DNA of 64,000 bases from Brevundimonas sp. (GTDB taxonomy: Bacteria > Pseudomonadota > Alphaproteobacteria > Caulobacterales > Caulobacteraceae): assembly GCA_027531145.1 (NCBI GenBank), contig JAPZRF010000006.1, positions 1 through 64,000 on the forward strand. The letters run 5' to 3'. Made by a program: the position numbers and the translations under genes. Positions 16,018 through 49,274 of this stretch are shown piece by piece. Within the stretch, counting starts at the first letter, position 1. Every line of letters starts with the position of its first letter. A model generated the notes under the pieces. The model was given only the letters and a program-made list of their open reading frames with translations, did no database searches and was not told where the DNA came from.

Positions 16018-16053
16018 GGCCCTGCCCCGCCTTGGGGCAAGAATCTGATCGAC

Positions 16054-19747: not shown

Positions 19748-19751
19748 GGGA

Positions 19752-22776: not shown

Positions 22777-22785
22777 GAGGGCCTC

Positions 22786-23883: not shown

Positions 23884-23963
23884 GATCTCTAATCTCCCCA
23901 ATCTGTTCCATCAAATGCCGACTTCCATCGGCGCAAGGTTCAAGCTGTCTTCGCGCATCGTGG

Positions 23964-28149: not shown

Positions 28150-28153
28150 CCAT

Positions 28154-29644
28154 TCACCTCAGCGTCACGGACACCGACTTCAGGTCGGCGTACTTGTGCA
28201 ACGCATGAAGGCTTCGGTCTCGGCCAAAACCGGACTGCTTGAAGCCCCCGAAAGGCATGGTGATGTCGCAGGCGTCCCAGCCGTTGATCCAGACCAGTCC
28301 GGCCTTCAGCTTGCGGGCGCAGCGCAGAGCCCGGCTGATATCGGTGGTCCAGAGTCCCGCGGCCAGGCCATAGACGGTGTCATTGGCCAGTTGGATGGCC
28401 TCGTCCTCGCCCAAAAAGCCCATTACGCCAAGCACCGGGCCGAAGATCTCCTCGCGGGCCAGGGTGCTGTCCGGAGCCACCTGGTCGAAGATGGTCGGCT
28501 CGACATAGAAGCCGCCGCTGTCCTGACGGATGCGCTCACCGCCCAGCAGCCGCCGCGCTCCCTGGCTGTGGGCCGTGGCGATAAAGCTGAGGGCGGTGTT
28601 CATCTGCCGCTCGCTGACCATCGCCCCGAACTGGGTGGCTGGATCCAGCGGATCGCCGACCACCATGTCGCGGGCGATCTGGACGACTCGAGCGACAAAC
28701 TCGCTGCGGATCGACTCCTCGACCAGCAGTCGCGACGCGGCGGTACAGACCTCGCCCTGGTTATAGAATACGCCCCAGGCCGCAGCCTGGGCGGCGGCTT
28801 CCAGGTCGGGGCAGTCGGCGAACACGATCTGGGGCGACTTGCCGCCCAGCTCCAGCGACACCCGCTTGAGGTTGCTGCAGGCCGAGGCCTCCATCAGCCG
28901 GCGCCCCGTGGACCCCGAGCCGGTGAAGGCGATCATGTCCACGTCCATGTGCTGGGCCAGGGCCTCGCCGGCTGTCGGCCCCAGACCCGGGACGACGTTC
29001 AGCACGCCCGGCGGCAGGCCCGCCTCCAGCGCCAGTTCGCCCATCTTCAGGGCCGTCAGGGGCGACTGCTCGGCGGGCTTGAGGACCACGCTGTTGCCCA
29101 TGGCCAGGGCCGGAGCCACCTTCCACATAGCCATGTGCAGCGGGAAGTTCCACGGCACGATGGCCCCGATCACCCCGAGGGGTTCATGGGTCGCAAAGCT
29201 CAGCCGGTCAGCAGGCGAGGCCCCGACCTCGCCATAGACCTTGTCCAGCGCCTCTGCGTACCAGCGGCAGGTATTGATCGCCAGCGGCACGTCCACGCTG
29301 CGGGCGTCGGTGATCGGCTTGCCGACATCCAGGCTCTCCAGCAGGGCAAGTTCTTCGGCGTCACGGGCCATCAGGTCGGCCAGGCGGAACAGGACGGTCT
29401 TCTTCTGCCGTGGTCCAAGGTTACGCCAGCGGCCATCCTCGAAGGCCGTGCGGGCACTGGCCACGGCGCGGTCCACATCAATAGCCTGGCACGAGGCCAC
29501 CGGGTTCAGCACGCGGCCGTCACGGGGCGAGACATTGAGAAAGGTGGCCCCGGACGCGGCCTCCACCCGCGCGCCGTCGATGACGGCCTGCCCCGGCAGG
29601 GACAATCCGGCGAGCGCTCGGGCAGCATCAAAGGCGAGGGTCAA
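28154..29644 (-). CDS. puuC: Gamma-glutamyl-aminobutyraldehyde dehydrogenase
   Basis: A 496-residue aldehyde dehydrogenase with IVPWNFPLHMAMWKVAPALA, VSLELGGKSPQIVF (Glu region) and FYNQGEVCTAASR (catalytic Cys), all typical of the PuuC/AldH group. It converts gamma-glutamyl-4-aminobutanal to gamma-glutamyl-GABA. It is the first gene of the minus-strand operon. A TTGACA promoter overlapped by a GATCAC palindrome (29662-29699) lies directly upstream, so expression of the whole series is probably controlled by the adjacent GntR regulator. Confidence 0.87.
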   Translation of the reverse strand: MTLAFDAARALAGLSLPGQAVIDGARVEAASGATFLNVSPRDGRVLNPVASCQAIDVDRAVASARTAFEDGRWRNLGPRQKKTVLFRLADLMARDAEELALLESLDVGKPITDARSVDVPLAINTCRWYAEALDKVYGEVGASPADRLSFATHEPLGVIGAIVPWNFPLHMAMWKVAPALAMGNSVVLKPAEQSPLTALKMGELALEAGLPPGVLNVVPGLGPTAGEALAQHMDVDMIAFTGSGSTGRRLMEASACSNLKRVSLELGGKSPQIVFADCPDLEAAAQAAAWGVFYNQGEVCTAASRLLVEESIRSEFVARVVQIARDMVVGDPLDPATQFGAMVSERQMNTALSFIATAHSQGARRLLGGERIRQDSGGFYVEPTIFDQVAPDSTLAREEIFGPVLGVMGFLGEDEAIQLANDTVYGLAAGLWTTDISRALRCARKLKAGLVWINGWDACDITMPFGGFKQSGFGRDRSLHALHKYADLKSVSVTLR

Positions 29645-29661
29645 GAGTGAAGATCTCCAAG

Positions 29662-29699
29662 ACTGTGATCACAGTTTTCCGGGCAAGCGAGACTGTCAA
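29662..29699 (-). promoter_or_regulatory. Polyamine operon promoter with GntR operator
   Basis: On the minus strand a consensus -35 TTGACA (29699-29694) is followed 17 bases later by AACTGT (29676-29671). A perfect 14-base palindrome ACTGTGATCACAGT (29662-29675) overlaps this -10. The site lies 18 bases before the puuC start and after the stop of the GntR gene. A related site occurs at 30535-30548. Position and symmetry fit repression by the FadR-type regulator encoded next door. Confidence 0.7.
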
Positions 29700-29708
29700 G
29701 CCAACGCC

Positions 29709-30386
29709 TCATGCCTCAGCCTCAACGGCCAGCCGCATCTTGTCCATGCCCTCGGAAAGATCGGCGGCGATGGCTGCTCGGGCAGCGTCAGGATCTCGGG
29801 CCTTCAGCGCCGCCATCGCCTCGGCATGACGGTCGGCAGGCAGGCTGCCGGTTCCAACCCGGCCGAACACCACCCGCATGAAGGGACCGATCTGCAGCCA
29901 GAGCCCCCCGGCCATGGACAGCAGGACCTCGGCCCCGGCCCGCTCATAGATGGTAAAGTGGAAGGCGTGGTTGGCGATCATGTAGCCGTCGACATCGCCG
30001 GCCGCGAGCGCCGCATCCAGCCGCGCGTCAATTCCCTGCAGGGTACGGATCAGGGCCGTATCAGCCGAGGGAGCTGTGCGAGCGGCCAGTTCCGGCTCGA
30101 TCCAGAGCCTTGCCTGGGCCAGTTGAGACAGGCGTTCAGCGCTCAGGGACGGCACGCTGAGCCGTTTGTTGGCCGGATTGATCGCCAACGCCCTCTCGGC
30201 GACCAGGCGGCGCACAGCATCGCGTACCGGCATCGGACTGACCCCGAGATCGGCGGCCAAGCTGCGCAGCGACACCCCCACGCCCGGTGCAATCCGGCCG
30301 ATGATCAGCGCCTGACGGATCGCGTCATAGACTTGGTCGTGAACGGCGGTGGAATCCGCAAGGGAGCGGCGGAGCCTGCCTGTCAC
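29709..30386 (-). CDS. GntR-family (FadR subfamily) regulator of the polyamine genes
   Basis: About 225 residues. A winged helix-turn-helix occupies the first 75 residues (VYDAIRQALIIGRIAPGVGV, SLRSLAADLGVSPMPVRDAV), followed by an all-helical FCD ligand domain with the usual His-rich metal site region (ANHAFHFTIYERAG). GTG 30386 is chosen because GGGGA lies six bases upstream; an ATG at 30458 is also open but poorly placed. The gene sits between the polyamine operon and the divergent aminotransferase, with palindromes in both control regions. A polyamine or GABA-type effector is likely but unproven. Confidence 0.82.
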   Translation of the reverse strand: MTGRLRRSLADSTAVHDQVYDAIRQALIIGRIAPGVGVSLRSLAADLGVSPMPVRDAVRRLVAERALAINPANKRLSVPSLSAERLSQLAQARLWIEPELAARTAPSADTALIRTLQGIDARLDAALAAGDVDGYMIANHAFHFTIYERAGAEVLLSMAGGLWLQIGPFMRVVFGRVGTGSLPADRHAEAMAALKARDPDAARAAIAADLSEGMDKMRLAVEAEA

Positions 30387-30534
30387 CGACCATCCCCGTA
30401 AAGGCGAACATCCGTGCGGACGCTCAAGATCGCGCTCGGCATGATGGCTCCTCGGCACCCTCCCCCGAGATCAAACCCGCAACGCCGCTTTCAGAGCAGT
30501 GAGCAGGCGAGGGAGGCTTGCAAAGTGGGGTGTA

Positions 30535-30548
30535 ATTGCGATCACAAT
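30535..30548. promoter_or_regulatory. Second GATCAC palindrome, putative GntR operator
   Basis: ATTGCGATCACAAT is symmetric at 12 of 14 positions and shares TG-x-GATCACA with the perfect site at 29662-29675. It lies in the gap between the divergent GntR and aminotransferase genes, 26 bases before the aminotransferase ATG. It could serve autoregulation of the GntR gene and repression of the aminotransferase. No other copy was noticed in the polyamine module. Confidence 0.6.
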
Positions 30549-30573
30549 GCAAGCCCTTGCAGAGGACTTCGCC

Positions 30574-31893
30574 ATGCCCGACCTCGGCACCAACAATCTC
30601 GACGCCTTCTGGATGCCGTTCACGCCCAACCGGCGGTTCAAGGCCCAGCCGCGTATGCTCTCGTCCGCGAAGGACATGAACTACAAGACGCCTGACGGCC
30701 GCGAGATCCTGGATGCCACATCGGGCCTTTGGTGCGTCAATGCCGGCCACGATCGCCCCCGCATCCGTGAGGCGATCCAGAAGCAGGCAGCCGAAATGGA
30801 CTATGCTCCCTGCTTCAACATGGGCCACCCCTTGGCTTTTGCCTTCGCCAGCCGCCTGGCCGAGATCACCCCGAAAGGTCTGGACCATATCTTCTTCACC
30901 AGTTCCGGGTCCGAGTCGGTCGACACCGCCCTGAAGATCGCGCTGGCTTATCAGCGGGCCCGTGGCAAGGGCACCAAGACCCGGCTGATCGGGCGCGAGC
31001 GCGGCTATCACGGGGTCGGCTTCGGCGGCGTCTCGGTTGGCGGCATACCGAGGAACCGGATGTATTTCGGCTCGCTACTGACCGGCGTCGATCACTTGCC
31101 GCACACGCACGGCGTGCCCGGCAACCTGTTCTCGAAGGGCGAGCCTCAGAACGGGGCCCATCTGGCCGACGACCTGGAGAGGATCGTCGCCCTGCATGAC
31201 GCCTCCAACATCGCCGCCGTGATCGTCGAGCCGGTGGCCGGTTCGACGGGCGTGCTGATCCCGCCCCGGGGCTATCTGCAGCGCCTGCGGGCCATCTGCG
31301 ACAGGCATGACATCCTGCTGGTCTTTGACGAGGTGATCACCGGTTTCGGGCGCCTGGGCGCGCCATTCGCCGCCGACCGCTTCGGCGTGACCCCCGACCT
31401 GATCTGCATGGCCAAGGGCCTGACCAATGCCGCCGTGCCCTGCGGGGCCGTGGCGGCCAGCGGCAAGATCCATGACGCCTTGATGGAGGGTGCCGACGCC
31501 CCCATCGAGCTCTTTCACGGCTACACCTATTCGGCCCACCCCCTGGCCTGCGCCGCCGGGATCGCGACGCTGGAGACCTATCGGGAAGATGACCTTTTTG
31601 CCCGTGCCGCCGGGATCGAGGCCTACTGGCAGGACGCCCTGCACAGTCTGCATGACGCCCGACATGTCATCGATATCCGCAATCTGGGCCTGATCGGCGG
31701 CATCGAACTGCAGCCCCGACCGGGCGCGCCCACGGCACGGGCGCTTGAAGTCTTCGAGGCCGCCTTCGACGACGGCCTGCTGATCCGGGTGACCGGCGAC
31801 ATCATCGCCCTGTCGCCGCCGCTGATCCTCGAGACCGGGCATATCGACCGCATGGTCGAGACCCTGCGGGCCGTGCTGGCGAAGGTGAAGTAG
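30574..31893 (+). CDS. Omega-amino acid:pyruvate aminotransferase-like protein
   Basis: A 439-residue class-III PLP transaminase. LDAFWMPFTPNRRF at the N-terminus and DATSGLWCVNAGH are hallmarks of the beta-alanine/omega-amino acid:pyruvate group. The PLP lysine lies in ICMAKGLTNAAVPCGA, with LLVFDEVITGFGRLG supplying the Asp. ATG 30574 has AGAGGAC upstream; longer starts at 30499 and 30550 lie upstream of or beside the operator. Divergent from the GntR gene, it likely handles GABA or beta-alanine, the latter arising from spermidine-type amines. It ends the polyamine module. Confidence 0.83.
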   Translation: MPDLGTNNLDAFWMPFTPNRRFKAQPRMLSSAKDMNYKTPDGREILDATSGLWCVNAGHDRPRIREAIQKQAAEMDYAPCFNMGHPLAFAFASRLAEITPKGLDHIFFTSSGSESVDTALKIALAYQRARGKGTKTRLIGRERGYHGVGFGGVSVGGIPRNRMYFGSLLTGVDHLPHTHGVPGNLFSKGEPQNGAHLADDLERIVALHDASNIAAVIVEPVAGSTGVLIPPRGYLQRLRAICDRHDILLVFDEVITGFGRLGAPFAADRFGVTPDLICMAKGLTNAAVPCGAVAASGKIHDALMEGADAPIELFHGYTYSAHPLACAAGIATLETYREDDLFARAAGIEAYWQDALHSLHDARHVIDIRNLGLIGGIELQPRPGAPTARALEVFEAAFDDGLLIRVTGDIIALSPPLILETGHIDRMVETLRAVLAKVK

Positions 31894-32067
31894 GCCTCCG
31901 CCCTGCAGCGGGTTCACCGGCAGCTTCGGTAACACCCGGGCGCACCGCTCGGTCGAGCACTTCGGAGGAACACCTGTCCGTCGTCCTGCCAGTCATGGCT
32001 CAACCCTCTCAGGAGTTGGAGCCTCCGGGAAATCAGGGACGGTTCAAGTTGGCGTTGGACTGACAGC
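31894..32067 (-). mobile_element. IS3-family end remnant and repeat, module boundary
   Basis: Minus-strand sequence beginning TGAACCGTCCCTGATTTCCC at 32046 resembles the terminus of an IS3-family element. An ATG at 31996 follows, opening MTGRTTDRCSSEVLDRAVRP, an eroded OrfA N-terminus that soon loses similarity. The adjacent 23-mer at 32045-32067 (CAAGTTGGCGTTGGACTGACAGC, split here as CAAGTTGGCGTT and GGACTGACAGC) matches the repeat at 225-247 at 21 of 23 positions. No complete transposase is present. The fragment separates the polyamine module from the GntR/imide-type module. Confidence 0.5.
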
Positions 32068-32083
32068 GACGGCGGAATTGCCT

Positions 32084-32126
32084 TTGCAAGCCCGCAAGAG
32101 CAAATGATATAAGATTATATCTTTTG
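32084..32126 (+). promoter_or_regulatory. Promoter and GntR operator A, hydratase/lyase operon
   Basis: Inverted repeat CAAATGATATAA (32101-32112), spacer GA, TTATATCTTTTG (32115-32126), with 11 of 12 arm positions paired. TTGCAA (32084-32089) lies 18 bases from TATAAG (32108-32113), so the operator covers the -10 element and the expected start site. The hydratase ATG is at 32158. This is one of six related sites (38820, 48362, 49209, 50440, 54773). The likely binder is the HutC-type GntR protein encoded at 48420-49211. Confidence 0.75.
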
Positions 32127-32157: not shown

Positions 32158-33468
32158 ATGGCTGGGGCCAAGGCCGCAAGGGGTCGCACGCTCGTCGAGA
32201 AGATCGCCGCCAAGGCGTCGGGTCGCGAGGGCGCGCGCGCGGGCGATCTGGTGACGGCCGAGGTGGACCTCTGCTTTGCCCATGACAGCTCTGGACCACG
32301 CCGCTGGGCACCGATGCTGGCGGAGATTGGGCGCGGCCTGTGGGATCCGTCCAAGGTCGTGATCGCGTCGGATCACTATGTGCCTGCGGTTGACGCCGAA
32401 AGCGCGGCGATTCTGAGCCTGACACGCCGGTTCGCTGCCGAACATGGCGTGGGCCGCTTCTACGACATGGAGGGGATCGGCCATATGCTGCTGGCCGAAC
32501 GAGGACTGGTCCGGCCTGGCATGCTCGTGGCGGGGGGCGACAGCCATACGCCTATGGCCGGTGCCTTCGGGGCCTATGCCGCAGGATACGGAGCGACAGA
32601 TATGGCGGCGATCGCCGCAACGGGTCGCACCTGGCTGGAAGTGCCCGCGACGATCAGGGTGGAGTGGCGCGGGGCCCTGGCGGACGGGGTGACGGCCAAG
32701 GACGTAATGCTGTTCCTTTGCCGCGAACTGGGTATGGACAATGCCTTCCGCGCCGTGGAGTTCGCCGGTCCGATGGTCGAGGCCATGTCGATGCCCGAGC
32801 GGCTGGTCTTGACCAATATGGCCGCCGAGCTGGGAGCCGAAACCGGGATCGTGGCACCGGACGCGACCACCTTTGCCTGGCTGAAGGAGGTCGGAGCGCC
32901 GGTCGAGGATGAGGCGGCGGCGCAGGCCTGGACGTCCGATCCGGACGCGGACTATGGAGCTTTACACCGGTTCGACGCGGGCGCGCTTGAACCCATGATC
33001 GCCCTGCCCCACTCCCCCGCCAACAGTGTGTCGGTCGCCGGTGCCGCTGGTCGCCGTATCGACCAAGCCTATGTCGGAGCCTGCGTGGGAGCAAAGCTGG
33101 AAGACTTGCACATGGCCTCGCGGGTGCTGGCGGGCCAAAGGATAGCGCCTGGCGTGCGGTTGCTCGTCGCCCCGGCGTCGTCGCGGGTTACGGAGGCCGC
33201 CGCGCGAGACGGGACCCTGGCCTGTCTGATGGCGGCCGGGGCCACCCTTATGCCCTCAGGTTGCGGGGCCTGCGCGGGCATGGGCGCGGGCCTGCTGGCC
33301 GATGGCGAGGTTTGCATCTCGACGACCAATCGGAATTTCAAGGGCCGGATGGGCCATGCAGGAGCCGAGGTCTATCTCGGTTCGCCCTATAGCGTGGCCG
33401 CTGCAGCCATCGCCGGAAGGATCATCGATCCGCGTGGTTACCTCGGTCAGCGGAAGGCGGCGGCATGA
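32158..33468 (+). CDS. Aconitase-family large subunit, dimethylmaleate hydratase-like
   Basis: A 436-residue large subunit of the LeuC/homoaconitase/dimethylmaleate hydratase branch. The [4Fe-4S] cysteines are C309 (YVGACVGAKLED), C369 and C372 (SGCGACAG). AGGDSHTPMAGAFGAYAAG and TTNRNFKGRMG are family signatures. Such enzymes add water to an alkylmaleate or remove it from an alkylmalate. It is coupled by ATGA to the small subunit and then to an isocitrate-lyase-superfamily gene, an arrangement known from dimethylmaleate hydratase/dimethylmalate lyase in nicotinate fermentation. No leucine-biosynthesis genes are nearby, so a catabolic role is favoured over LeuC. Confidence 0.8.
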   Translation: MAGAKAARGRTLVEKIAAKASGREGARAGDLVTAEVDLCFAHDSSGPRRWAPMLAEIGRGLWDPSKVVIASDHYVPAVDAESAAILSLTRRFAAEHGVGRFYDMEGIGHMLLAERGLVRPGMLVAGGDSHTPMAGAFGAYAAGYGATDMAAIAATGRTWLEVPATIRVEWRGALADGVTAKDVMLFLCRELGMDNAFRAVEFAGPMVEAMSMPERLVLTNMAAELGAETGIVAPDATTFAWLKEVGAPVEDEAAAQAWTSDPDADYGALHRFDAGALEPMIALPHSPANSVSVAGAAGRRIDQAYVGACVGAKLEDLHMASRVLAGQRIAPGVRLLVAPASSRVTEAAARDGTLACLMAAGATLMPSGCGACAGMGAGLLADGEVCISTTNRNFKGRMGHAGAEVYLGSPYSVAAAAIAGRIIDPRGYLGQRKAAA

Positions 33469-33977
33469 CCTTGCCCGACAGCGGCCGGGCCTTCGTGTTC
33501 GGCGACCAGATCGATACCGACCTCCTGGCACCAGGCCACCTGATGAAGCTCGATCCGGACGCTCTGGCAAGCCACTGCCTGGAGGCCATCGATCCGACGT
33601 TCGCGAGCAGCGTACGCGCGGGAGACTTCGTCGTGGCCGGGCTGAATTTCGGTCTGGGGTCGTCGCGCGAGCAGGCCGCGGTCTCATTGAAGCGCCTGGG
33701 GGTGCGAGCCGTCATCGCCCGGTCTTTCGCGCGAATCTTCTGGCGCAATGCCATCAACCTGGGCCTGCCCGCGATAACACTCGCCGCCGCGCACGAGGTC
33801 ACGGCCGGCGACCGGCTGAGCCTCGATCTGCAGGCGGGCAAACTGATCAATGAGACTTCGGGTCGGCTCTATGCGTTCGCCCCCTTCCCCGACCACCTGA
33901 CGGCGATGATGCGCGATGGAGGGCTGATCGCCCATCTGAAGCGTTCCGCCTCTGAACCCACCGGAGCCGCCGCGTGA
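33465..33977 (+). CDS. Aconitase-family small subunit (swivel domain)
   Basis: A 170-residue LeuD-like swivelling domain that closes the active site of the two-subunit hydratase. Signatures are FGDQIDTDLLAPGHLMKL at the start and NFGLGSSREQAAVSLK, the substrate-binding loop. It overlaps both neighbours (ATGA with the large subunit, GTGA with the lyase), so equimolar synthesis is expected. The length is normal for the LeuD/DmdB group. Substrate specificity in this family depends on the loop after GSSREQ, but I cannot read a particular acid from it. Confidence 0.8.
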   Translation: MTLPDSGRAFVFGDQIDTDLLAPGHLMKLDPDALASHCLEAIDPTFASSVRAGDFVVAGLNFGLGSSREQAAVSLKRLGVRAVIARSFARIFWRNAINLGLPAITLAAAHEVTAGDRLSLDLQAGKLINETSGRLYAFAPFPDHLTAMMRDGGLIAHLKRSASEPTGAAA

Positions 33978-34852
33978 GCCTGAAAGCCCGCCTGACTACG
34001 CCGGGACCGGCGGTCCACGCACCGGGTGCATTCGACGCCCTGTCGGCCCTGCTGATCCAGCAGACAGGCTTCGAGGCCGTCTACTTGTCCGGAGCGTCTA
34101 TCGCGTACACCCAACTTGGGCGACCGGACCTTGGGCTGGTTAGCTTCGACCACGTCGCAGACGTGGTGGCCCGCATCTGCGAGCGGGTGGACATTCCCCT
34201 GATCGTCGATGCCGATACCGGCTTCGGGAACGCCCTGAACGTGGCGCGGACGGTCAAGGTTTTCGAGCGCAACGGGGCCCGCGCCATCCAGCTGGAGGAT
34301 CAGACGTTCCCGAAACGCTGCGGACACCTGGCCGGCAAGGGCGTGGCCTCGACCGAGGAGATGGTCGGCAAGGTCCATGCGGCGCTGGATGCCAGGAGAT
34401 TCGACGAGACCCTGATCATCGCCCGGACCGACGCCATCGCGGTGGAGGGGTTCGAACCCGCACTGGAGAGAGCGGTCGCCTATGCAGAGGCGGGTGCCGA
34501 CGTTGTCTTCGTCGAGGCCCCGCGCGACCTGGAGCAAATGAAGCGCATCGTGACGACGCTCGGCCGCACGCCCGCCATGGCCAATATGGTCGAGGGCGGA
34601 AAGACGCCGATACTGACCCGGGACGCCCTGGGCGAGATTGGCTTCAGGCTGGTTATCAGCCCTGGTGCCCTGGTGCGCGCCCTGATCCCGGCGGCGGAGA
34701 GCTTCCTGAGGGCGCTCGGGTCGGAAGGGTCGACCGTCAGCTACAGGGACAGGATGACGGACCTCGCCGGGGTAAACGCCCGCATCGGCCTGGAGGAGAT
34801 GTTGGCGCTCGGCGACCGCTACGAGCGGGAGCGAGAGGAAGCGGCCGAGTGA
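33974..34852 (+). CDS. Isocitrate lyase/PEP mutase-family lyase, dimethylmalate lyase-like
   Basis: A 292-residue lyase with a TIM barrel. The metal-binding Asp pair is in VDADTGFG (D79, D81) and the catalytic loop is KRCGH (residues 114-118), the form found in methylisocitrate and dimethylmalate lyases. Family chemistry is retro-Claisen cleavage of a 2-hydroxy acid to pyruvate (or glyoxylate) and a carboxylate. With the hydratase pair encoded just upstream, the natural reading is hydration of an alkylmaleate, then cleavage to pyruvate plus an acid. No methylcitrate synthase accompanies it, which argues against a plain propionate (Prp) role. The start is GTG, overlapping the previous stop. 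Confidence 0.8.
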   Translation: MSLKARLTTPGPAVHAPGAFDALSALLIQQTGFEAVYLSGASIAYTQLGRPDLGLVSFDHVADVVARICERVDIPLIVDADTGFGNALNVARTVKVFERNGARAIQLEDQTFPKRCGHLAGKGVASTEEMVGKVHAALDARRFDETLIIARTDAIAVEGFEPALERAVAYAEAGADVVFVEAPRDLEQMKRIVTTLGRTPAMANMVEGGKTPILTRDALGEIGFRLVISPGALVRALIPAAESFLRALGSEGSTVSYRDRMTDLAGVNARIGLEEMLALGDRYEREREEAAE

Positions 34853-35799
34853 ACTGCTCCGATCCCAACCTCTATGACCACTGGCCCTATCGCGACCGGC
34901 CGAAGATCACATGGCCGGGCGGCAAGGCCCTGGCCTTCTGGATCGCGCCCAACATCGAATTCTATGAGTTCGACCCGCCGGTGAACCCGGCGCGACCCGG
35001 CTGGCCGCGCCCGGCCCCGGACGTGGTCGGCTATTCCCAGAGGGACTGGGGCAATCGGGTCGGGCACTGGCGGCTTCAGGACCTGCTGGACCGGCACGGG
35101 CTGAGGGGGTCCGTGTCGCTGTCGATCGGGCTGATCGACCACCACCCCGAGATCATCGAAGCAGCGAACGCGCGGGGCTGGGAGTTCTTCAGCCACGGCA
35201 TCTACAACACCCGCTACTCCTACGGCATGGACGAGGCCCAGGAACGGGCAATCCTCATCGACTCGATCCGCTCGGTCGAGGCCGCGACGGGCCAGCGCAT
35301 CCGGGGTTATCTGGCACCCGCCCTGACGCACACGGCGCGGACCCTTGATCTGCTCGGCGAGCACGACTTCTGGTACTCCTGCGACCTGTTCCAGGATGAC
35401 CAGCCCCAACCACTGAAGACGAGGACCGGGCGGCTGGTCTCCATGCCCTATTCGCTCGAGGTCAACGACGTCATCGGCTACTCGGTGATGGGCTTGGACC
35501 CTTGGCGCTATGCCGACGTCCTGAAGCGTCATTTCGACCAGCTGCTGGCCGAGGGGCGCGAGAGCGGGACGGTAATGTGCATACCGCTGCACGCTTATCT
35601 GGTCAGCCAGCCGCATCGTATCCGGGCCTTCGAAGAGGCTCTGGAGCACATAATGGGCCACCGCGACGAGGTCTGGTTCGCGACGGGGTCGGAGATCGCG
35701 GCTCACTACCTTGAGCACTGCTGGGATCAGACGGTGGCGGACATTCAGCGGCGCGGCCTGGCGACAGGCGGGTATGGGTTCGACGATGCCGCTGCCTGA
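34849..35799 (+). CDS. Polysaccharide-deacetylase-fold hydrolase, PuuE/imidase-like (1)
   Basis: A 316-residue protein of the PuuE branch of the polysaccharide deacetylase superfamily. It contains NRVGHWRLQDLLDRHGLR, LIDHHPEIIEAANARGWEFF and SHGIYNT, all characteristic of allantoinase PuuE and, as I recall, of some bacterial cyclic-imide hydrolases. These enzymes open cyclic amides or imides rather than deacetylating sugars. GTG 34849 overlaps the lyase stop (GTGA). Placed right after an alkylmaleate-type hydratase and lyase, an imidase acting on an alkylated maleimide would provide their substrate after one more amide hydrolysis. No allantoin genes are nearby. The function is inferred. Confidence 0.72.
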   Translation: MNCSDPNLYDHWPYRDRPKITWPGGKALAFWIAPNIEFYEFDPPVNPARPGWPRPAPDVVGYSQRDWGNRVGHWRLQDLLDRHGLRGSVSLSIGLIDHHPEIIEAANARGWEFFSHGIYNTRYSYGMDEAQERAILIDSIRSVEAATGQRIRGYLAPALTHTARTLDLLGEHDFWYSCDLFQDDQPQPLKTRTGRLVSMPYSLEVNDVIGYSVMGLDPWRYADVLKRHFDQLLAEGRESGTVMCIPLHAYLVSQPHRIRAFEEALEHIMGHRDEVWFATGSEIAAHYLEHCWDQTVADIQRRGLATGGYGFDDAAA

Positions 35800-36718
35800 G
35801 GAGCATCTTATCTATCCACACCGGCGACGCGGCATGGACCAGTCGCTCTACGACTGGCGGCCGGCGACGGCGCGGCCCAGGGGGCGCTGGCCCGGCGATC
35901 GCGGGATGGCGGTCATGATTGTGATGCCGGTCGAGTGGCACATGCTTGATCCTTCGGGAAAGCCGTTCAAGCATCCCGGTGCCATGCAGACTGCCTGGCC
36001 GGACCTTCGGCACTACACGACAAGAGACTATGGCCCCCGCGTCGGGGGCTTCCGACTGCTACGGGCGCTGAAGGAGGCGGGGCTTAAGGCGACTGTTCCG
36101 GTGAACGGCATCGCGCTGGAGCGTTACCGGCCACTGGTCGAGGCGGCGCTGGAGGACGGGCACGAGATCGCAGCTCACGGCTGGTCGACGGATGCGATCC
36201 ATCATTCGGGTTTGTCCGAGGGCGAAGAGCAGGCGCTGGTGGCGCGCGCACGCGAGGCTTTCGAGCGCTTGGGCCTGAAGCCCCGCACGTGGATGAGCCC
36301 GGCGCGGCAGCAGTCATTCCGCACCCTGTCGCTGATCGCCGAGGCAGGCTTCGACGTCTGCCTGGACTGGGAGCAGGACGAGGTGCCGGTGGCGATGACT
36401 ACCGAAGCCGGGATGGTTCACGCCGTGCCGCTGATGAACGAGCTTGACGACCGAACCCTGCTGATAGATCGGCGACAGACAGAAGACGTGTGGATCGATC
36501 AGGTGCTGGAGGCGGCGGCGTATCTGAAGGCCGACTCCGGAACCGACGACCGGCGGGTGCTGGGCTTCACCCTGACGAGCTACGTCGCGGGCCAGCCGTT
36601 CCGGATGAGCGCCGTGCGCCGCATGCTCGCGGGTCTGGCGGAAGTTCGGGCGTGGTCGGCGACGGCGAGCGAGATCGCTGCCGCCTATTCTCCCACTGGG
36701 AGGTCGGTAAGTACCTGA
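35786..36718 (+). CDS. Polysaccharide-deacetylase-fold hydrolase, PuuE/imidase-like (2)
   Basis: A 310-residue paralogue of the preceding protein with the same frame of motifs (YGPRVGGFRLLRALKEAGLK, EDGHEIAAHGWSTDAIHH, WMSPARQQSFRTL) but clearly divergent. ATG 35786 lies inside the last codons of the preceding gene, a 14-base overlap, so the two are made together and may act on related cyclic amides or form one complex. The 3' end overlaps by 34 bases with the convergent VOC gene. It is the last gene of the operator-A operon. Confidence 0.7.
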   Translation: MPLPEEHLIYPHRRRGMDQSLYDWRPATARPRGRWPGDRGMAVMIVMPVEWHMLDPSGKPFKHPGAMQTAWPDLRHYTTRDYGPRVGGFRLLRALKEAGLKATVPVNGIALERYRPLVEAALEDGHEIAAHGWSTDAIHHSGLSEGEEQALVARAREAFERLGLKPRTWMSPARQQSFRTLSLIAEAGFDVCLDWEQDEVPVAMTTEAGMVHAVPLMNELDDRTLLIDRRQTEDVWIDQVLEAAAYLKADSGTDDRRVLGFTLTSYVAGQPFRMSAVRRMLAGLAEVRAWSATASEIAAAYSPTGRSVST

Positions 36719-37281
36719 TTCAGTTCGACGTAGTGACCGTCGGGGTCATAAACCGACGAGAAGCTCACGCGGATCACGCTGGTCCCGTCGTAGCCGGGAT
36801 AGGTCACCACATGAGGCGTCTCGCCCACCCGCACGCCCGGCGAGGCAGCGGCGCGGGCGAAGACCTCTTCCTGGTTCTCGACGTTGAACACGAGCACGAT
36901 GTCGCCGGGATGCAGGACGTTGTCGTCCGGGGCGCGCTCGGGCCGGGGCTGGCGCTCAGGCCTAGTGTACTCCATCAGGCCGAGGATGCCGATGTAGTCG
37001 TCATTGGCGCGCAGGAAAACGAGCCGCAAAGACCGCTCGGCCGCCTCGTCGTTCGGGGCGTCTCGCGGCGTACGGATCACGTTGTCATAGATCGGCACGA
37101 GACCGATCGCTCGGTAAAAGGCCAGAGATGCCTCGATGTCACGCACAACCAGGGTGGTGCGCCGCAGGTCCAGCGGAACGCGCTGGTCGGCCGACACCCG
37201 CTCGGGAGCGGGCTCGGCAATTGCGCCGGCGGCACAGGAGGAGGCCGCCAAGACCGAAGCCACCAGCAGGGCGCGGATCAT
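36685..37281 (-). CDS. Exported VOC/glyoxalase-fold protein, probable lipoprotein
   Basis: About 198 residues. The leader MIRALLVASVLAASSC ends at a lipobox-like Cys. A single VOC (glyoxalase/dioxygenase) domain follows, starting TTLVVRDIEASLAFYRAIGL and ending VYDPDGHYVELNQV, where the Glu is a typical metal ligand. ATG 37281 overlaps the isochorismatase stop by ATGA. VOC proteins include lyases, isomerases and ring-cleaving dioxygenases, or may only bind the compound. A second exported VOC protein is encoded at 42051-42596. Role in the pathway unknown. Confidence 0.78.
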   Translation of the reverse strand: MIRALLVASVLAASSCAAGAIAEPAPERVSADQRVPLDLRRTTLVVRDIEASLAFYRAIGLVPIYDNVIRTPRDAPNDEAAERSLRLVFLRANDDYIGILGLMEYTRPERQPRPERAPDDNVLHPGDIVLVFNVENQEEVFARAAASPGVRVGETPHVVTYPGYDGTSVIRVSFSSVYDPDGHYVELNQVLTDLPVGE

Positions 37282-37976
37282 CGGGCAGTCTCCAGATGGT
37301 CCAGGACATCGGCCGCCGGCAGGACATCGGCGTACTTCAGCAGCAGGTCCGTCAGGTTGGCGTAATGGTAGCTCTCGTGCTTGTCGGCGACGCATTCGAC
37401 CGGGACGATCGTCCGGTATCCGCGCGACAGGCTTTCCACGGCCGTGGCGCGAACACAGCCCGAGGTCGAGCCACCGGTAACGATCACCGTGTCGATGCGA
37501 TGCCAGATCAGATAGCTCTGCAGCGGCGTCTCGTGAAATGCTGACGGCATACGCTTGTCGAAGATCAGGTCGATCTCGCAGTCGGGCCGAGCGCGCGGAT
37601 CAAACGCATGACGGTCCGAGCCGAACCGGATGTTCTGCAGGCTGTCGGGCGTGTCGCTCCGCGTTCCCCACACGCCAGCGTCGCTGCCGTCGGGCTTGTA
37701 ACAGACGCGGGTCCAGACGACCGGCAAACTTGCGGCGCGAGCAGCGTCGCTGATCCTATTGATCCAGCCTATCTGGTCCGGGTCAGTCACGTAAGCTGTC
37801 TTCGGAAAAAGGTCCGGGCGGGTGTAAGCTTGCTGCACATCGACATTGACGACAGCGGATCGCTGGCCAAAGCCGAAGCCGCGGCGCGCCGGGTTCGCCC
37901 GCACTTCTTCGTAGATCAGTCTGGCGGGCCGGTCGTCGCGGGTCATCGTGGGTTCGAAACGCAGATCGCCCATCAT
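37278..37976 (-). CDS. Isochorismatase-family amidohydrolase, maleamate amidase-like
   Basis: A 232-residue cysteine hydrolase with the full catalytic triad: D46 (VVNVDVQQAY), K141 (IFDKRMPSAF) and C174 (GGSTSGCVRAT). This GxSTSGCVRAT form is that of N-carbamoylsarcosine amidase, maleamate amidase (NicF) and ureidoacrylate amidase. ATG 37976 overlaps the upstream stop (ATGA); the longer open frame extends into the upstream gene. No signal peptide is seen, so it is cytoplasmic, unlike its two exported neighbours. It is well placed to hydrolyse the half-amide produced by an imidase to a free dicarboxylate plus ammonia. Confidence 0.83.
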   Translation of the reverse strand: MMGDLRFEPTMTRDDRPARLIYEEVRANPARRGFGFGQRSAVVNVDVQQAYTRPDLFPKTAYVTDPDQIGWINRISDAARAASLPVVWTRVCYKPDGSDAGVWGTRSDTPDSLQNIRFGSDRHAFDPRARPDCEIDLIFDKRMPSAFHETPLQSYLIWHRIDTVIVTGGSTSGCVRATAVESLSRGYRTIVPVECVADKHESYHYANLTDLLLKYADVLPAADVLDHLETAR

Positions 37977-38770
37977 TGCGGCTCCCCGGACTGAAGGTGC
38001 CGGATCTCCTGAAGTCCCGTCGGCGGCGCTCGCCAGAGCGGGGCCTCCGTCTCGACGTAGTGCCGCAGTGAGGCGGGCACGTCCTCCCATTGGTCAATGC
38101 GCCAGGTAATCAGGTGCATGATCGCCGGCCCACCGCCTGCCCACGCCGGGGCATCTCCGTACCGGACCCAGGAAAGCTGGTTCGGATTGGAGGCCCCGCC
38201 CGGTGCCTGGATAAAGAAATCGTAGTTCTCGAAGGCCTGGTAGCGGCGCTCCCCGCTGGTCGGGATGTCCAGAAAAAGCGGCGCGGTGAACACGTAGGCG
38301 TCGCCGATCCGGCGCGCCTGCATCGTATTGCCCGGTCCGATGCGCTGGACGCGCGCGCCCGAGCCTTGCTCCACCATCGTTGTCAGGCGATCACCGACCA
38401 GCTCATAGGTGATGAACTGATAGGGATAGGCCACCGGTTCGACGGCGACTCCGTTCCTCTCCTGCAGGATCTCGTTCGATTCCGCGTCCCGATAGACGTA
38501 AATCTTGCGCGAGAACTGCCGCGCCAGCGCCCGCCCTGGATCCGGGCGATCAGATGTCGATGCGTCGAAGCCTTCGACCCGCGCGAGCAGATCGCCCGAA
38601 GGGTAGGCCCGCAGAGTGCCGACGGAATACCAGTAGACCGGACGCCCCGTTCCGGTGCGAGCATCGACAAACACGGCGAAGCTTTCGCGGTCGAACCCCT
38701 GGCTCCGGGCATCGTCTCCCGAGCCAGCCAGGATGGCCGCGGTGAACGCAAGAAGGGTCAATCGTCGCAT
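37973..38770 (-). CDS. Exported DUF1838-like protein of unknown function
   Basis: A 265-residue protein with a signal peptide (MRRLTLLAFTAAILAGSG...) and a beta-rich mature part resembling DUF1838 proteins (YVYRDAESNEIL, GERRYQAFENYDFF, PAIMHLITWRIDQWEDVP). ATG 38770 has GGAGG seven bases upstream; the longer open frame to 38950 runs through the promoter. It is the first gene of a three-gene coupled run (DUF1838, amidase, VOC) divergent from the TonB receptor across operator B. Periplasmic binding or conversion of the imported substrate is plausible. The DUF assignment is from memory of the family and is moderate. Confidence 0.65.
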   Translation of the reverse strand: MRRLTLLAFTAAILAGSGDDARSQGFDRESFAVFVDARTGTGRPVYWYSVGTLRAYPSGDLLARVEGFDASTSDRPDPGRALARQFSRKIYVYRDAESNEILQERNGVAVEPVAYPYQFITYELVGDRLTTMVEQGSGARVQRIGPGNTMQARRIGDAYVFTAPLFLDIPTSGERRYQAFENYDFFIQAPGGASNPNQLSWVRYGDAPAWAGGGPAIMHLITWRIDQWEDVPASLRHYVETEAPLWRAPPTGLQEIRHLQSGEPQ

Positions 38771-38819: not shown

Positions 38820-38845
38820 CAAATGATATAAGAATATACCAATAG
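38820..38845. promoter_or_regulatory. GntR operator B in divergent promoter region
   Basis: The left arm CAAATGATATAA (38820-38831) is identical to that of operator A. The right arm ATATACCAATAG (38834-38845) matches the consensus TTATATCATTTG at 8 of 12. It lies between the divergent DUF1838 (start 38770) and TonB receptor (start 38893) genes and could control both. TATAAG inside the site may serve as the -10 for the receptor gene. Confidence 0.7.
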
Positions 38846-38892: not shown

Positions 38893-41208
38893 ATGCGTTT
38901 TTCCGTTTCGCTTCTCTCCACCGCCTCCGCCGCCGCCATGTTTGTCGCACTTCCTGCGGCTGCCCAGGATAGGCCGTCCGACCGGGCCGTCACGCGCGTC
39001 GATGAAATCATCGTCACTGCCCAGCGCCGGGAGCAGAACATCCAGGACGTGCCGATAGCCGTTACGGCCTTCACTGACACCCAGCTGGAAGTCGCTATCG
39101 TAGAGGATACGACCGACCTCGTGCGGGTTACGCCAAGCCTGACGGGGGGTCTGAACACCGGCACGGGGGGCGCCGTCAGCTACTTCATCCGAGGTCTCGG
39201 ATCCACCGAACAGGTCGCTACATTCGATGTGCCTGTCGCGACCTATGTCGATGAAGTCTACGTCGCTCGCCAGATCGCCAACAACATCACCCTGCTGGAC
39301 GTGGATCAGATCGAGGTCTTGCGCGGCCCGCAAGGCACATTGTTTGGTCGCAACACAACAGGCGGCGCAATCTCTATCACGACGCGCAAGCCCAATCAGG
39401 ACTTCCGAGCCTCCGTTGAAGGCACCTACGGATCATTCGACCGCTATACCTTGCGCGGTGCAATCAGTGGACCGCTGAATGACGCCGTCTCGGCGGGCGT
39501 GACGGTCCTCCGGATCGGCGATGACGGGTACTCGCGCAGCCTTGTTACCGGACAGGACCTGAACGGCGAGGACACTTGGGGCATCCGCGCAGCCTTGCGT
39601 TTCCAGCCCGGCGAGACCTGGGACTGGAATCTCTCCGCCGACTACATCGACCAGGCCAAGACCACCATCGGCGTGAACCCGTTGGATCCCCAGTACACGA
39701 GCCGGACTGGACTGAGGCGCGGCAACTGCTCCGACAGCGCGGTGGAGTCTTTCCTGAACCAACGCCTTGGCAACTGTGCCCGCACTCGGGTCGCCACCCT
39801 GATTTCGAACCTGACCCACGACATGGGCTGGGCCAGTGTCAGCTGGATCAGCGGCTACATCTCCACCGATCAGATTTTTTCGATCGACTTCGGCCTTGGC
39901 GGCAGCCCCACGCCGTTCGGCGGCTTCGTCATTTCCAATGACGTCGAGACGAGGCAATGGACGCAGGAACTCAAGCTGGTCGGCGAGACCGGCCGCGTCA
40001 ACTGGGTGGCCGGCCTCTTCTACCTGGATGAGGACAACTCGACCTATCAGGTCGACACCTTCGCCACGACGCCGACGGCCACCAGCGCCCTGGTGCTGGG
40101 CGATCGTTTGCTTGATAACGGGACCCGGTCTTTTGCGGCCTACGCCCAGGGCGACTTCGCGATCACGGACCAGCTCACCCTGACGCTTGGGGGGCGTTAC
40201 ACCGATGAGGACAAGGACATCAGTTTCGGTGATCGGACCCGAGCGACCTATCCGGCCGGCTTCATCGGCTTCACCGGTGCCGCGACCTCACGGCCGACGA
40301 CCGCGAACCTGATCGCAGCCGGAATACCGGTTTCGCAGTCGACCTCGAAGTTCACGCCCCGCGTCGCCCTCGCCTACGAAATGAACGATGACGTGATGTT
40401 CTTCGCTTCCGCGACCAATGGCTTCAAGTCAGGCGGCTGGAACGCGCGCGGCACGACCGCAATCACCAACTCCGCCTTCGGCCCGGAGGAGGCATGGTCG
40501 TACGAATTCGGCATGCGTTCTGACCTTCTTGAGGATACGCTGCGGCTCAACTTGACCCTGTATCGTCTGGAGGTGGAGAACCTGCAGCTGCTTTCGGGTC
40601 AGCCTCGCCCCGGCGGCGGTATCGACTTCGTGACCCGTAACGCGGGTGGCCTCGAAGCAACCGGCCTTGAGGCCGAGATCACCTGGAGTCCTACCGAAGC
40701 GCTGGAGATCTATGCCACCGGCTCAATCGCTGATCGGCAATACGTCGACATCCCGCTGCGTAACGGCGCAGGTGGCGTCCCGTGTTCAACGACGCCAGAG
40801 CCGCTGAACTGTGTGACCACTCGCGACCAGCCGGTCCGTTTCCCGGAGAGCCAGGCCACGCTGGGTGCCCGCTATACCCTGCCCACCACACTGCTCGACG
40901 GCGAGTGGTCGCTGAACGGTTCGATCAGCTACTCAGACGAGTACTGGACTTCGACCTACAACGATGCGCGCACCGCGACCGGTGTGCCGTTTGGCGGAAC
41001 GACAGCCATTACGGTGCCGTTATCCCTGACCGCAGCAACCACGGTCTACAACATCGGCGTGCGCTACGAGAGCAACGACGGGGCCTGGCAAGCATCGCTG
41101 GACTGCTCGAACTGCGGTGAAGAGTATTACGTCACCTCCTCGCTGGTGGGCCTAGCCTATCCGAACGATCCGCGTCGGGTCACCTTCCGCCTGCGCCGGA
41201 ATTTCTGA
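38893..41208 (+). CDS. TonB-dependent outer-membrane receptor (module 3, first)
   Basis: A 771-residue receptor: signal peptide ending ALPAAAQ, TonB-box region DEIIVTAQRREQN, plug (YFIRGLGSTEQVATF, LRGPQGTLFGRNTTGG), then a long barrel ending TFRLRRNF with a terminal Phe. GGGAG lies eight bases before the ATG. It is followed 10 bases later by an exported hydrolase and a VOC gene. Receptors of this IPR/Pfam type in alphaproteobacteria take up many organic compounds besides siderophores. Control by operator B ties its expression to the imide-type enzymes. Confidence 0.9.
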   Translation: MRFSVSLLSTASAAAMFVALPAAAQDRPSDRAVTRVDEIIVTAQRREQNIQDVPIAVTAFTDTQLEVAIVEDTTDLVRVTPSLTGGLNTGTGGAVSYFIRGLGSTEQVATFDVPVATYVDEVYVARQIANNITLLDVDQIEVLRGPQGTLFGRNTTGGAISITTRKPNQDFRASVEGTYGSFDRYTLRGAISGPLNDAVSAGVTVLRIGDDGYSRSLVTGQDLNGEDTWGIRAALRFQPGETWDWNLSADYIDQAKTTIGVNPLDPQYTSRTGLRRGNCSDSAVESFLNQRLGNCARTRVATLISNLTHDMGWASVSWISGYISTDQIFSIDFGLGGSPTPFGGFVISNDVETRQWTQELKLVGETGRVNWVAGLFYLDEDNSTYQVDTFATTPTATSALVLGDRLLDNGTRSFAAYAQGDFAITDQLTLTLGGRYTDEDKDISFGDRTRATYPAGFIGFTGAATSRPTTANLIAAGIPVSQSTSKFTPRVALAYEMNDDVMFFASATNGFKSGGWNARGTTAITNSAFGPEEAWSYEFGMRSDLLEDTLRLNLTLYRLEVENLQLLSGQPRPGGGIDFVTRNAGGLEATGLEAEITWSPTEALEIYATGSIADRQYVDIPLRNGAGGVPCSTTPEPLNCVTTRDQPVRFPESQATLGARYTLPTTLLDGEWSLNGSISYSDEYWTSTYNDARTATGVPFGGTTAITVPLSLTAATTVYNIGVRYESNDGAWQASLDCSNCGEEYYVTSSLVGLAYPNDPRRVTFRLRRNF

Positions 41209-41218
41209 GGCCAGGAGA

Positions 41219-42046
41219 TTGCGCCGCCGCACGCTTCTGGCTGGCGGTGCCATGGGGGCGGTCCTGAACGCTACCCATCACGGGGCGCGAGCGCATAGCT
41301 CGCGCCCCGTCTTCGTTCTGGTACACGGCACCTGGCACGGCGGGTGGTGCTGGCGGCGCGTCGCCAGCACGCTGGAAGCTTCGGGCGCGCGGGTGCTGAC
41401 CCCGACCTTGACCGGCTGCGGCGAGCGGACCCACCTGCTGGGACCAGACGTGGACCTGGAAACCCACATCCAGGACGTCATGGGTGCCATAGACGCGGAA
41501 GAACTGACGACCTTGCATCTCTGCGGCCACTCCTACGGCGGAATGGTCGTCACAGGCGTCTGTGACAGAATGAAGAGCCGGATCGCATCGGTCCTGTATC
41601 TCGACGCTGCTGTCCCATCGGATGGCCAATCCATGGTCACCCAATCGCCGGGAATTACGCCGGAGGCGGCGGCTGCCATGGAAGCCAGCCTGCGCGCCCT
41701 GGCTCCAGACGGCGTCGCCATGCAGGTGTTCAATGACGTTACCCTCTTCGGCGTGGCTGCCGGAAGCGCAGATGAGGCTTGGTTGAAGCGGCGCCTGACC
41801 CCCCATCCTCTCAAGACATGGCTGGACCCGATTCGCCTCGGCGATGGCGGATCGGCCGGACTTCGCCGGACCTATGTCCATTGCATCGACCCGGTCCTGC
41901 CTATGGCCTCGTTCGGGGCCCATCACGAACGATTGAGCTCCGATCCCAGCTGGTCCACTTCGACGCTGGCGACCGGACACGATGCGATGGTCTCAGCGCC
42001 TCATGTCGTCGCCGACCTGCTGATGGCCCAGACCTTGAACGGATAA
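41219..42046 (+). CDS. Tat-type exported alpha/beta hydrolase, methylesterase-like
   Basis: About 275 residues. The TTG start at 41219 gives MRRRTLLAGGAMGAVLNATH, a twin-arginine leader, but AGGAG is too close to it, so the exact start is unsure (ATG 41252 would lose the RR motif). The mature domain, FVLVHGTWHGGWCWRR...GCGERTHLLGPDVDLETH, is strikingly like the plant methylesterase/hydroxynitrile lyase group. The nucleophile is in CGHSYGGMV and a late His in LATGHDAM. Members remove methyl esters or cleave C-C bonds of beta-diketones. In the periplasm it would act on the imported substrate early in the route. Confidence 0.75.
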   Translation: MRRRTLLAGGAMGAVLNATHHGARAHSSRPVFVLVHGTWHGGWCWRRVASTLEASGARVLTPTLTGCGERTHLLGPDVDLETHIQDVMGAIDAEELTTLHLCGHSYGGMVVTGVCDRMKSRIASVLYLDAAVPSDGQSMVTQSPGITPEAAAAMEASLRALAPDGVAMQVFNDVTLFGVAAGSADEAWLKRRLTPHPLKTWLDPIRLGDGGSAGLRRTYVHCIDPVLPMASFGAHHERLSSDPSWSTSTLATGHDAMVSAPHVVADLLMAQTLNG

Positions 42047-42050: not shown

Positions 42051-42596
42051 ATGACCACTGATCGCCGCGCCATCCTGGCCGGGTCCACCTTGCTCCCGGC
42101 CGCCCTTGCGACCGCAGTCCTGGCGCAGACCCCGCCATCCACCGGCCAGTTGGTCAGGTGCGCCCTGTTCGTTTCGGATCTGGAGGCATCGACAGCCTTC
42201 TACCGCGATGTGATCGGCCTGCCCGAGTTGCTGTTTGAAGGGGCCCTGCAGGGCGCACCTCTGGAGCGGTTGCTGGGCCTCGCCGAAGGTGCCGGGGTTC
42301 GGTTCCGCATCCTCAAGGCGGAGGGACCACCGTACGGCATGATCGCCCTGTTCCAGGTGACCGGACAAACTCTCACGCGAGTCGCTAAGACAGAGGGGAC
42401 GGTCAACATCGGCGAGAGTGTCCTTGTTTTCCATCGCCCCGACCTCGACGCCGTTGCGGCCCGGCTGGCAGGGATCAACCAGGCCTTCCTGAGCGGTCCT
42501 CAACGGCTTGTGGACACACCTCGGCGTCAAACCGACCGTGAGGTCATGCTGCGCGACCCGGATGGTGTCTTGATCAACCTGATCGAGCGCGTCTAG
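42051..42596 (+). CDS. Tat-type exported VOC/glyoxalase-fold protein
   Basis: A 181-residue protein with the leader MTTDRRAILAGSTLLPAALA (RRxxL twin-arginine type) and one VOC domain: CALFVSDLEASTAFYRDVIG at the start, REVMLRDPDGVLINLIE at the end. It follows the hydrolase by four bases and converges with the flavin amine oxidase, overlapping by four bases. Together with the lipoprotein VOC at 36685-37281 it suggests two VOC halves in the same compartment, possibly a metal-dependent ring-opening or binding pair. This is inference. Confidence 0.78.
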   Translation: MTTDRRAILAGSTLLPAALATAVLAQTPPSTGQLVRCALFVSDLEASTAFYRDVIGLPELLFEGALQGAPLERLLGLAEGAGVRFRILKAEGPPYGMIALFQVTGQTLTRVAKTEGTVNIGESVLVFHRPDLDAVAARLAGINQAFLSGPQRLVDTPRRQTDREVMLRDPDGVLINLIERV

Positions 42597-49234: not shown

Positions 49235-49274
49235 CGTCCGCGCTAGGCATAGGACGATCCGCACGGAGCGCGCA

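Follow-up and report, generated by a model that had tools for sequence, protein, structure and literature searches.

What substrate is consumed by the catabolic genes that follow position 32101 in a Brevundimonas sp. genome? We analysed a 64,000-nt window (positions 1-64,000 of contig JAPZRF010000006.1, assembly GCA_027531145.1), for which an initial annotation had proposed one regulon leading from cyclic imides to pyruvate plus a carboxylate. The answer that we infer, and to which we give about an even chance of being correct, is that these genes belong to an operator-marked catabolic island for linear tetrapyrroles (bilins, chiefly cyanobacterial phycobilins), which would be degraded via 2-methyl-3-alkylmaleimides to pyruvate and short acids. 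Families were called by Pfam and NCBIfam profile cut-offs, where "equivalog" denotes the NCBIfam cut-off for one exact function, and tblastn matches with less than 40% query coverage were excluded from locus comparisons.

The genes share a 26-bp palindrome, CAAATGATATA-N4-TATATCATTTG, which occurs in nine copies over about 48 kb, from window position 32101 to contig position 79694. A script found no exact inverted repeat common to ten intergenic stretches; the palindrome was spotted by reading and then matrix-tested. The matrix was built from four window copies; it recovered two further sites inside the window and, in the 20 kb of contig that follow, three more, so that five of the nine sites are independent of it. 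Site scores range from 30.7 to 46.1. Within the window the sites lie before the hydratase operon (32101-32126, score 46.1), in a divergent promoter region (38820-38845, 42.1), at 48362-48387 (40.9, independent of the matrix), at 49209-49234 (30.7), before the genes for TonB2 and a CpeT-type protein (50440-50465, 39.2) and at 54773-54798 (35.0, also independent); the remaining three start at 71491, 74909 and 79669. As controls, the maximum score was 11.8 in five simulated first-order 64-kb sequences and no more than 9.7 in the window outside the island, while 398 kb from elsewhere in the genome (what remains of contig 37 up to 280 kb, together with 200 kb of contig 45) yielded a single site of 16.0 and nothing higher.

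Nine shared operator-like sites therefore indicate one regulon, extending from the hydratase operon through both TonB genes as far as those for an MFS transporter and a YCII protein at about 80 kb. One regulon across the island is thus well supported, where it had previously been asserted; the five families named in the initial annotation do lie inside it, but the real unit is much wider. A GntR/UTRA regulator (48420-49190, minus strand; PF07702, PF00392; the open reading frame (ORF) is longer and the start approximate) sits between two operators and is likely to be the repressor of the regulon. No operator site was present before the amidase-CoA ligase-MmgE/PrpD genes or before the coenzyme A (CoA) transferase at 61100, where a second GntR/UTRA gene is located (62403-63116, plus strand; PF00392, PF07702). 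Of the 145 related loci that were scanned, 34 had sites scoring at least 25, and the loci without such sites may use a diverged operator.

The first operon encodes the proposed last steps. Its products are a DmdA/isopropylmalate (IPM)-isomerase-type hydratase large subunit (32158-33468, plus; PF00330, 307.4 bits), a DmdB/LeuD-type small subunit (33465-33977, plus) and an isocitrate lyase (ICL)/phosphoenolpyruvate-mutase-family lyase with a KRCGH loop (33974-34852, plus; PF13714). The hydratase exceeds the broader NCBIfam cut-offs for the IPMI_arch subfamily (TIGR02086, 438.1 against 410.15) and the LeuD/DmdB subfamily (TIGR02087, 181.1 against 108.95). The three cluster cysteines are present in all 25 hydratase large subunits and the loop K-[RK]-C-G-H in 12 of 12 lyases, so the hydratase pair and lyase of the initial annotation stand as described, with motifs intact.

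Could these be enzymes of leucine biosynthesis or the methylcitrate cycle that are here by chance? The family-level match to aconitase/IPM isomerase and to PrpB-like lyases would allow it, as would the MmgE/PrpD genes nearby and the fact that no second PrpB-like gene was found in the genome, where the only other lyase match is short and falls within a frame of 429 aa on contig 11. However, the hydratase falls below the leucine equivalogs (LEU2, 373 against 610.65; leuC, 223 against 560.25), the lyase falls below prpB (278.3 against 354.4), TIGR01800 was not reached (337.9 against 421.3), and the MmgE/PrpD protein tested (family 2, 59740-61089, minus; PF03972) scored 47.5 against 458 for prpD. 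The genome also has a distinct LeuC-type frame on contig 23, and the lyase occurred with PuuE2, one of two imidase-like proteins described below, in 22 of 22 genomes. We rejected the leucine and methylcitrate assignments on these equivalog cut-offs and genome content, and chance placement is highly improbable; orthology to such enzymes, which the initial annotation had set against its own proposal, was not indicated by the equivalog cut-offs.

Comparison of loci suggests that the final cleavage varies. For this count we used 65 of 80 named loci, excluding 15 shorter than 13 kb, and set thresholds of at least 55% identity for the DmdA-like hydratase and at least 50% for the ICL-type lyase. The DmdA-like hydratase and ICL-type lyase were present in 24 loci, a LeuD-type subunit with a hydroxymethylglutaryl-CoA (HMG-CoA)-lyase-type enzyme in 15, and neither was within reach in 26; at these thresholds none of the 65 contained both lyase modules. 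The hydratase loop followed the same division: GACVG (9 of 25) was confined to genomes with the ICL-type lyase and never accompanied the HMG-CoA-lyase type in the fetched loci, while 15 of the 16 hydratases with GSCTN (16 of 25) came from genomes with the HMG-CoA-lyase type. The exclusion is not strict. Loci L058 and L059, which account for three rows with GSCTN and the HMG-CoA-lyase type, also have a distant ICL-type lyase (37-41%), and genome G166 has the HMG-CoA-lyase type plus a 49% lyase. From these sequence comparisons the final step looks interchangeable between the two types. On grounds of pathway chemistry, several routes in one island for cutting methyl-bearing C4 diacids to pyruvate and an acyl product would be what degradation of beta-substituted pyrrole rings needs.

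Upstream in the proposed pathway stand PuuE1 (34849-35799, plus; PF01522; PDB relatives 1z7a and 3cl6), an allantoinase-like, deacetylase-fold protein and putative imide hydrolase, and PuuE2 (35786-36718, plus; PF01522; the ORF opens at 35711, with an ATG at 35786), a second allantoinase-like protein. A putative half-amidase of the isochorismatase family is encoded at 37278-37976 (PF00857; nearest solved relative 1nba; ORF to 38090). All three are where the initial annotation placed them, the amidase gene being on the minus strand. The amidase reached no NCBIfam equivalog. Its triad, said to be intact, was indeed read at D46-K141-C174 (numbered from the 37976 start), and D-K-C is kept in 34 of 34 clustered family members.

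One alternative is that the substrates of the island are other cyclic imides, hydantoins or N-heterocycles, and that its CpeT- and DUF3598-type proteins have been co-opted for another hydrophobic ligand. The isochorismatase gene adjoins PuuE1 in all 14 class-level loci examined, regardless of CpeT; PuuE allantoinase and N-carbamoylsarcosine amidohydrolase, to which these proteins are related, act on cyclic ureides and carbamoyl compounds; and a fungal imidase is reported to work on a hydroxyglutarimide (PMC9304392). We nevertheless consider this quite unlikely, as the island holds several parallel routes for cutting methyl-C4 diacids, with bilin-lyase-type proteins under the same operator.

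The proteins that point to bilins are encoded beside a TonB receptor gene. The stop codon of TonB2, a TonB-dependent receptor (50489-52873, plus; PF00593, PF07715), overlaps by one base the start codon of a 324-aa CpeT/CpcT-type protein (52873-53847, plus; PF06206, 29.2 bits against a cut-off of 21), whose N-terminus looks signal-like by reading. Its profile matched CpcT with an E-value of 0.0011. In the predicted model (pLDDT 92) the protein has the T-type lyase fold: the best PDB matches were CpcT with phycocyanobilin, then CpcT and plant CRL, with a Foldseek E-value of 7e-8 to 4o4s, and cyanophage CpeT matched at 0.0014 (the next match had an E-value of 0.022 and a probability of 0.20). A CpcT-like fold is therefore what the model gives for this protein. 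Its relatives (51 sequences) have a conserved C-terminal region in common, in an alignment comprising only the proteins among 51 of 78 (the window's own and 77 matches).

Next to CpeT, on the minus strand, are a DUF3598-type gene (54287-54814; PF12204, a marginal 22.6 bits against 22; true start probably near 54733) and a second DUF3598-like gene (53844-54290), whose product is 51-52% identical to its neighbour and has no Pfam match of its own. The family alignment held 30 sequences, the window's and 29 taken from 120 listed of 411. Its profile found no convincing sequence relative in the PDB but the fold search did match: the model of the 54287-54814 product (pLDDT 90) resembles BFA1, a Nostoc DUF3598 structure and 3bdr, and the E-value to the DUF3598 structure 2o62 was 3e-7. 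One paper lists 3BDR as a CpcS/U-type lyase structure and describes the CpcS/U and CpcT families as distantly related with a similar beta-barrel (PMC7948978). What the match of the DUF3598-type model supports is therefore a barrel fold and not bilin binding as such.

Are these genes inherited together? We counted carriers in 200 Caulobacterales genomes, with the genome of the window included in each count, and found PuuE2 in 46, CpeT in 34, HapK in 41, the lyase in 22 and DUF3598 in 35 (11 by the Pfam model, 35 when recounted with the protein as query). PuuE2 was also present in 29 of the 34 CpeT genomes, 32 of 35 with DUF3598, 33 of 41 with HapK and 22 of 22 with the lyase. By genus, PuuE2 occurred in 14 of 16 genera with CpeT versus 3 of 25 without (p ~2e-6), a count that removes kinship only partly. 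In 14 of the 29 genomes having both, CpeT and PuuE2 shared a contig and lay no more than 60 kb apart, and 21 of 55 CpeT copies were that close, where random placement in 3.3 Mb would predict about two.

Much of the island also recurs at a distance. In G373, a genome of another family in the class, most of the set lies within 37 kb: CpeT, TonB2, GntR, MFS and DUF3598 (72% identical); the CoA transferases, both MmgE/PrpD proteins, CoA ligase, amidase, acyl-CoA dehydrogenase, MaoC, CitE and enoyl-CoA hydratase; and PuuE2, PuuE1, isochorismatase, DUF1330, DUF1838 and nitrilase. Brevundimonas bacteroides DSM 4726 carries the stretch from hydratase to FAD oxidase (locus L139) and a CpeT homologue (P0125). 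Among the named PuuE1 carriers are root- or soil-type Caulobacter (by name), Candidatus Phycosocius bacilliformis and Aquidulcibacter paucihalophilus, the last isolated from cyanobacterial aggregates (PMC5712168).

Several results argue against bilins as the substrate. Neither PuuE protein reached the PuuE allantoinase equivalog TIGR03212 (424.6), PuuE1 scoring 117.8 and PuuE2 69.2. At the presumed metal-ligand positions PuuE1 has H116 in 38 of 38 sequences but N120 in 38 of 38; PuuE2 has H156 in 29 of 43, and position 160 is mostly T, with H not among the three commonest letters (n = 43). The H-x-x-x-H metal pair of NodB-fold imidases (HxnM/HpPgdA type) is therefore lacking in both, neither is a canonical metal-triad enzyme, and the imide-opening step, which rests on distant similarity, is putative. 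No bilin-cleaving enzyme was recognised among the island proteins. The Pfam match of the window's CpeT is modest, and the DUF3598-type model also resembles designed barrels and nitrobindins. Both CpeT and DUF3598 were absent from 11 of 46 PuuE2 genomes. In a class-level sample of 337 genomes (that of the window included), PuuE1 was present in 24 and CpeT in five, with both in three genomes including the window's own, so 21 of 24 PuuE1 genomes lacked CpeT. Because many PuuE genomes lack CpeT, the imide module is broader than its CpeT-linked use. Finally, the G373 CpeT locus lacks the DmdAB and HMG-CoA-lyase modules, although a second G373 locus has LeuCD, a CoA transferase and the HMG-CoA-lyase type.

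The same maleimide route could instead serve cyclic tetrapyrroles: the cell might turn over bacteriochlorophyll of its own or scavenge products of chlorophyll or heme, with CpeT and DUF3598 binding such products. Phototrophic potential is reported for Brevundimonas (including B. bacteroides), Aquidulcibacter and Oceanicaulis (Alkalicaulis) species (PMC12700997), which keeps chlorophyll-type tetrapyrroles among the possible substrates. Candidatus Phycosocius bacilliformis, which has PuuE1, is reported to be an ectosymbiont of a green alga (PMC5946039), there are PuuE2 genomes without CpeT, and maleimides are named as products of tetrapyrrole degradation (PMC8669743). However, the coupling of TonB2 to CpeT and the signal-like N-terminus indicate an external substrate, and the closest folds to the CpeT-type model are those of phycobilin lyases and CRL. 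We therefore regard cyclic tetrapyrroles as rather unlikely.

Returning to linear tetrapyrroles, the TonB receptors would bring the pigment in, and outside the inner membrane it would be bound by the CpeT-type protein. The methine bridges would be cleaved by flavin, VOC, DUF1838 or DUF1330 proteins, which are candidates for this role. PuuE1 and PuuE2 would then open the imide ring, the isochorismatase-family enzyme would hydrolyse the half-amide, the DmdAB-like hydratase would add water to the alkylmaleate to give an alkylmalate, and the ICL-family lyase would cut the alkylmalate so that the methyl-bearing carbon leaves in pyruvate. Since each pyrrole ring of a bilin bears a methyl group and a second, different side chain, each ring would give pyruvate and a side-chain acid, predicted to be glutarate, butyrate or vinylacetate. 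The CoA ligase, CoA transferases, acyl-CoA dehydrogenase, MaoC and enoyl-CoA hydratase could carry these acids into central metabolism, and the GntR/UTRA protein at 48420 would repress the operons.

The order imide, half-amide, alkylmaleate, alkylmalate, then pyruvate plus acid had been suggested in the initial annotation and is partly supported; it fits the co-inherited set and the exchange of the last step. Two sources suggested there, hematinic acid and methylvinylmaleimide, gain from the presence of TonB receptors and of proteins of the CpeT and DUF3598 types in the same operator-marked island, while the substrate itself stays conjectural. It could further be speculated, with a probability that we place well short of even, that this is a complete phycobilin-eating system: phycobilin peptides would enter via TonB2, a secreted CpeT-type lyase turned scavenger would hold or strip the bilin, and a new oxidative cleavage would yield methyl-alkyl-maleimides and succinimides, from which interchangeable hydratase-lyase modules would make pyruvate and a side-chain acid for every ring, all under one GntR/UTRA operator.

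PF01126, the one heme oxygenase family searched for, was absent from the genome, and bilins made by that route would thus come from outside. In the open-access literature, as covered by titles and the starts of abstracts (excluding subscription papers and preprints), we found no description of bacterial genes by which bilins or alkylmaleimides are taken into central metabolism. Phycobilin metabolites that are fairly resistant to microbes have been suggested to add to deep-ocean fluorescent organic matter (PMC5442323).

The other genes of the island up to the regulator are as follows. Those on the minus strand encode a VOC-family protein (36685-37395; PF00903), a DUF1838-like protein with a signal-like N-terminus (37973-38770; PF08894, 19.8 bits, below the cut-off of 25; ORF to 38950, start chosen by reading), an FAD amine-oxidase-type protein (42593-43981; PF01593), a DUF3108-like protein (43983-44696; PF11306, 18.4 bits, below the cut-off of 26), an aldehyde dehydrogenase (44699-46120; PF00171), an FAD-linked oxidase (46117-47715; PF01565) and a membrane-protein-like ORF with no Pfam family (47700-48350). 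On the plus strand are a TonB-dependent receptor (38893-41208; PF00593, PF07715), an alpha/beta hydrolase (41219-42046; PF12697) and a second VOC-family protein (42051-42596; PF00903). The FAD-linked oxidase and aldehyde dehydrogenase (44699-47715, minus) are joined in L046 (3039-6047) into a single ORF some 1000 residues long; an ORF of that family occurs in five genomes, of which L046 was looked at individually. A second DUF1838-type protein, also with a signal-like N-terminus, lies at L244 11662-12594 (minus; 245 bits). At L244 6052-10772 (contig 37, about 68-73 kb) are glutathione S-transferase, third PuuE-like, HapK/REDY-type and methyltransferase-like proteins; the HapK/REDY family is known from prodigiosin clusters.

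Beyond the regulator lies a nitrilase/aliphatic-amidase-fold protein (49212-50321, plus; PF00795; true start probably later than 49212). When aligned to amidase, 31 of 31 family members have E-R-S in place of the catalytic E-K-C, so this protein should be without the usual nitrilase chemistry. Beyond the TonB2, CpeT and DUF3598 genes come an enoyl-CoA hydratase family protein (54861-55652, plus; PF00378), an amidase-signature hydrolase (55594-56982, minus; PF01425), a PaaK-like CoA ligase (56982-58379, minus; PF14535; PaaK 155.5, below 646.3), MmgE/PrpD family 1 (58376-59881, minus; PF03972), an acetyl-CoA hydrolase/transferase-type CoA transferase (61100-62395, plus; PF13336; start approximate) and a CaiB-type CoA transferase (63200-64000, minus, running past the window; PF02515). 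Past 64 kb the island has CoA transferases, acyl-CoA dehydrogenase, MaoC and CitE, and it reaches about 80 kb on the contig. Relatives of these later genes score nearest to glutarate/mesaconate CoA-transferases and to RipB, RipC or citE, all below the equivalog cut-offs.

The region from about 13000 to 32000 contains none of the operator sites and looks like a unit apart from the island. It is polyamine-catabolism-like (by reading, a glutamine-synthetase-like gene, an ABC transporter, aminotransferases and aldehyde dehydrogenases), with an AptA match of 752 bits against a cut-off of 500 at 30499. Positions 1353-12897 hold peptidase-like genes, with a DUF885 protein at 1353 and dipeptidase- and M3-like genes (by reading), and another TonB receptor, and an ORF at 4913-5599 (minus) resembles, by reading, a broken IS5-type transposase.

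If our proposal is true, a pigment-attachment fold has been turned to pigment scavenging. The analysis offers candidate roles for DUF3598, DUF1838, HapK-like and PuuE-like proteins, and testable genes are available in a cultured relative, B. bacteroides DSM 4726. Among known systems, DmdAB and dimethylmalate lyase belong to the anaerobic nicotinate fermentation of Eubacterium barkeri. The island resembles that system in placing a two-subunit aconitase-family hydratase beside an ICL/PEP-mutase-family lyase, but here they are accompanied by putative hydrolases for imides and amides and by a predicted TonB/CpeT set for uptake. Fungal nicotinate use offers a parallel to the predicted order of deacetylase-fold imide opening and then amide hydrolysis, with the cyclic imidase HxnM followed by the amide hydrolase HxnN; HpPgdA and the P. 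putida imidase are given as relatives of HxnM, whereas PuuE1 and PuuE2 are nearer PuuE allantoinase, and no alkylmalate steps are described there (PMC9304392). The CpeT-type protein shares its Pfam family and predicted fold with CpcT and CpeT, the phycobilin lyases found in cyanobacteria and cyanophages, and differs from them in its signal-like N-terminus, its extra conserved C-terminal region and its coupling to a TonB receptor gene. The CoA transferases, MaoC hydratase and CitE-type lyase beyond 64 kb recall RipABC-type degradation of itaconate and mesaconate, although all score below the equivalog cut-offs and the island has an acyl-CoA dehydrogenase as well. Gut bilirubin reduction by BilR is also a bacterial use of a bilin, as is predicted here; BilR reduces bridges with no ring opening, while ring opening is proposed for the island.

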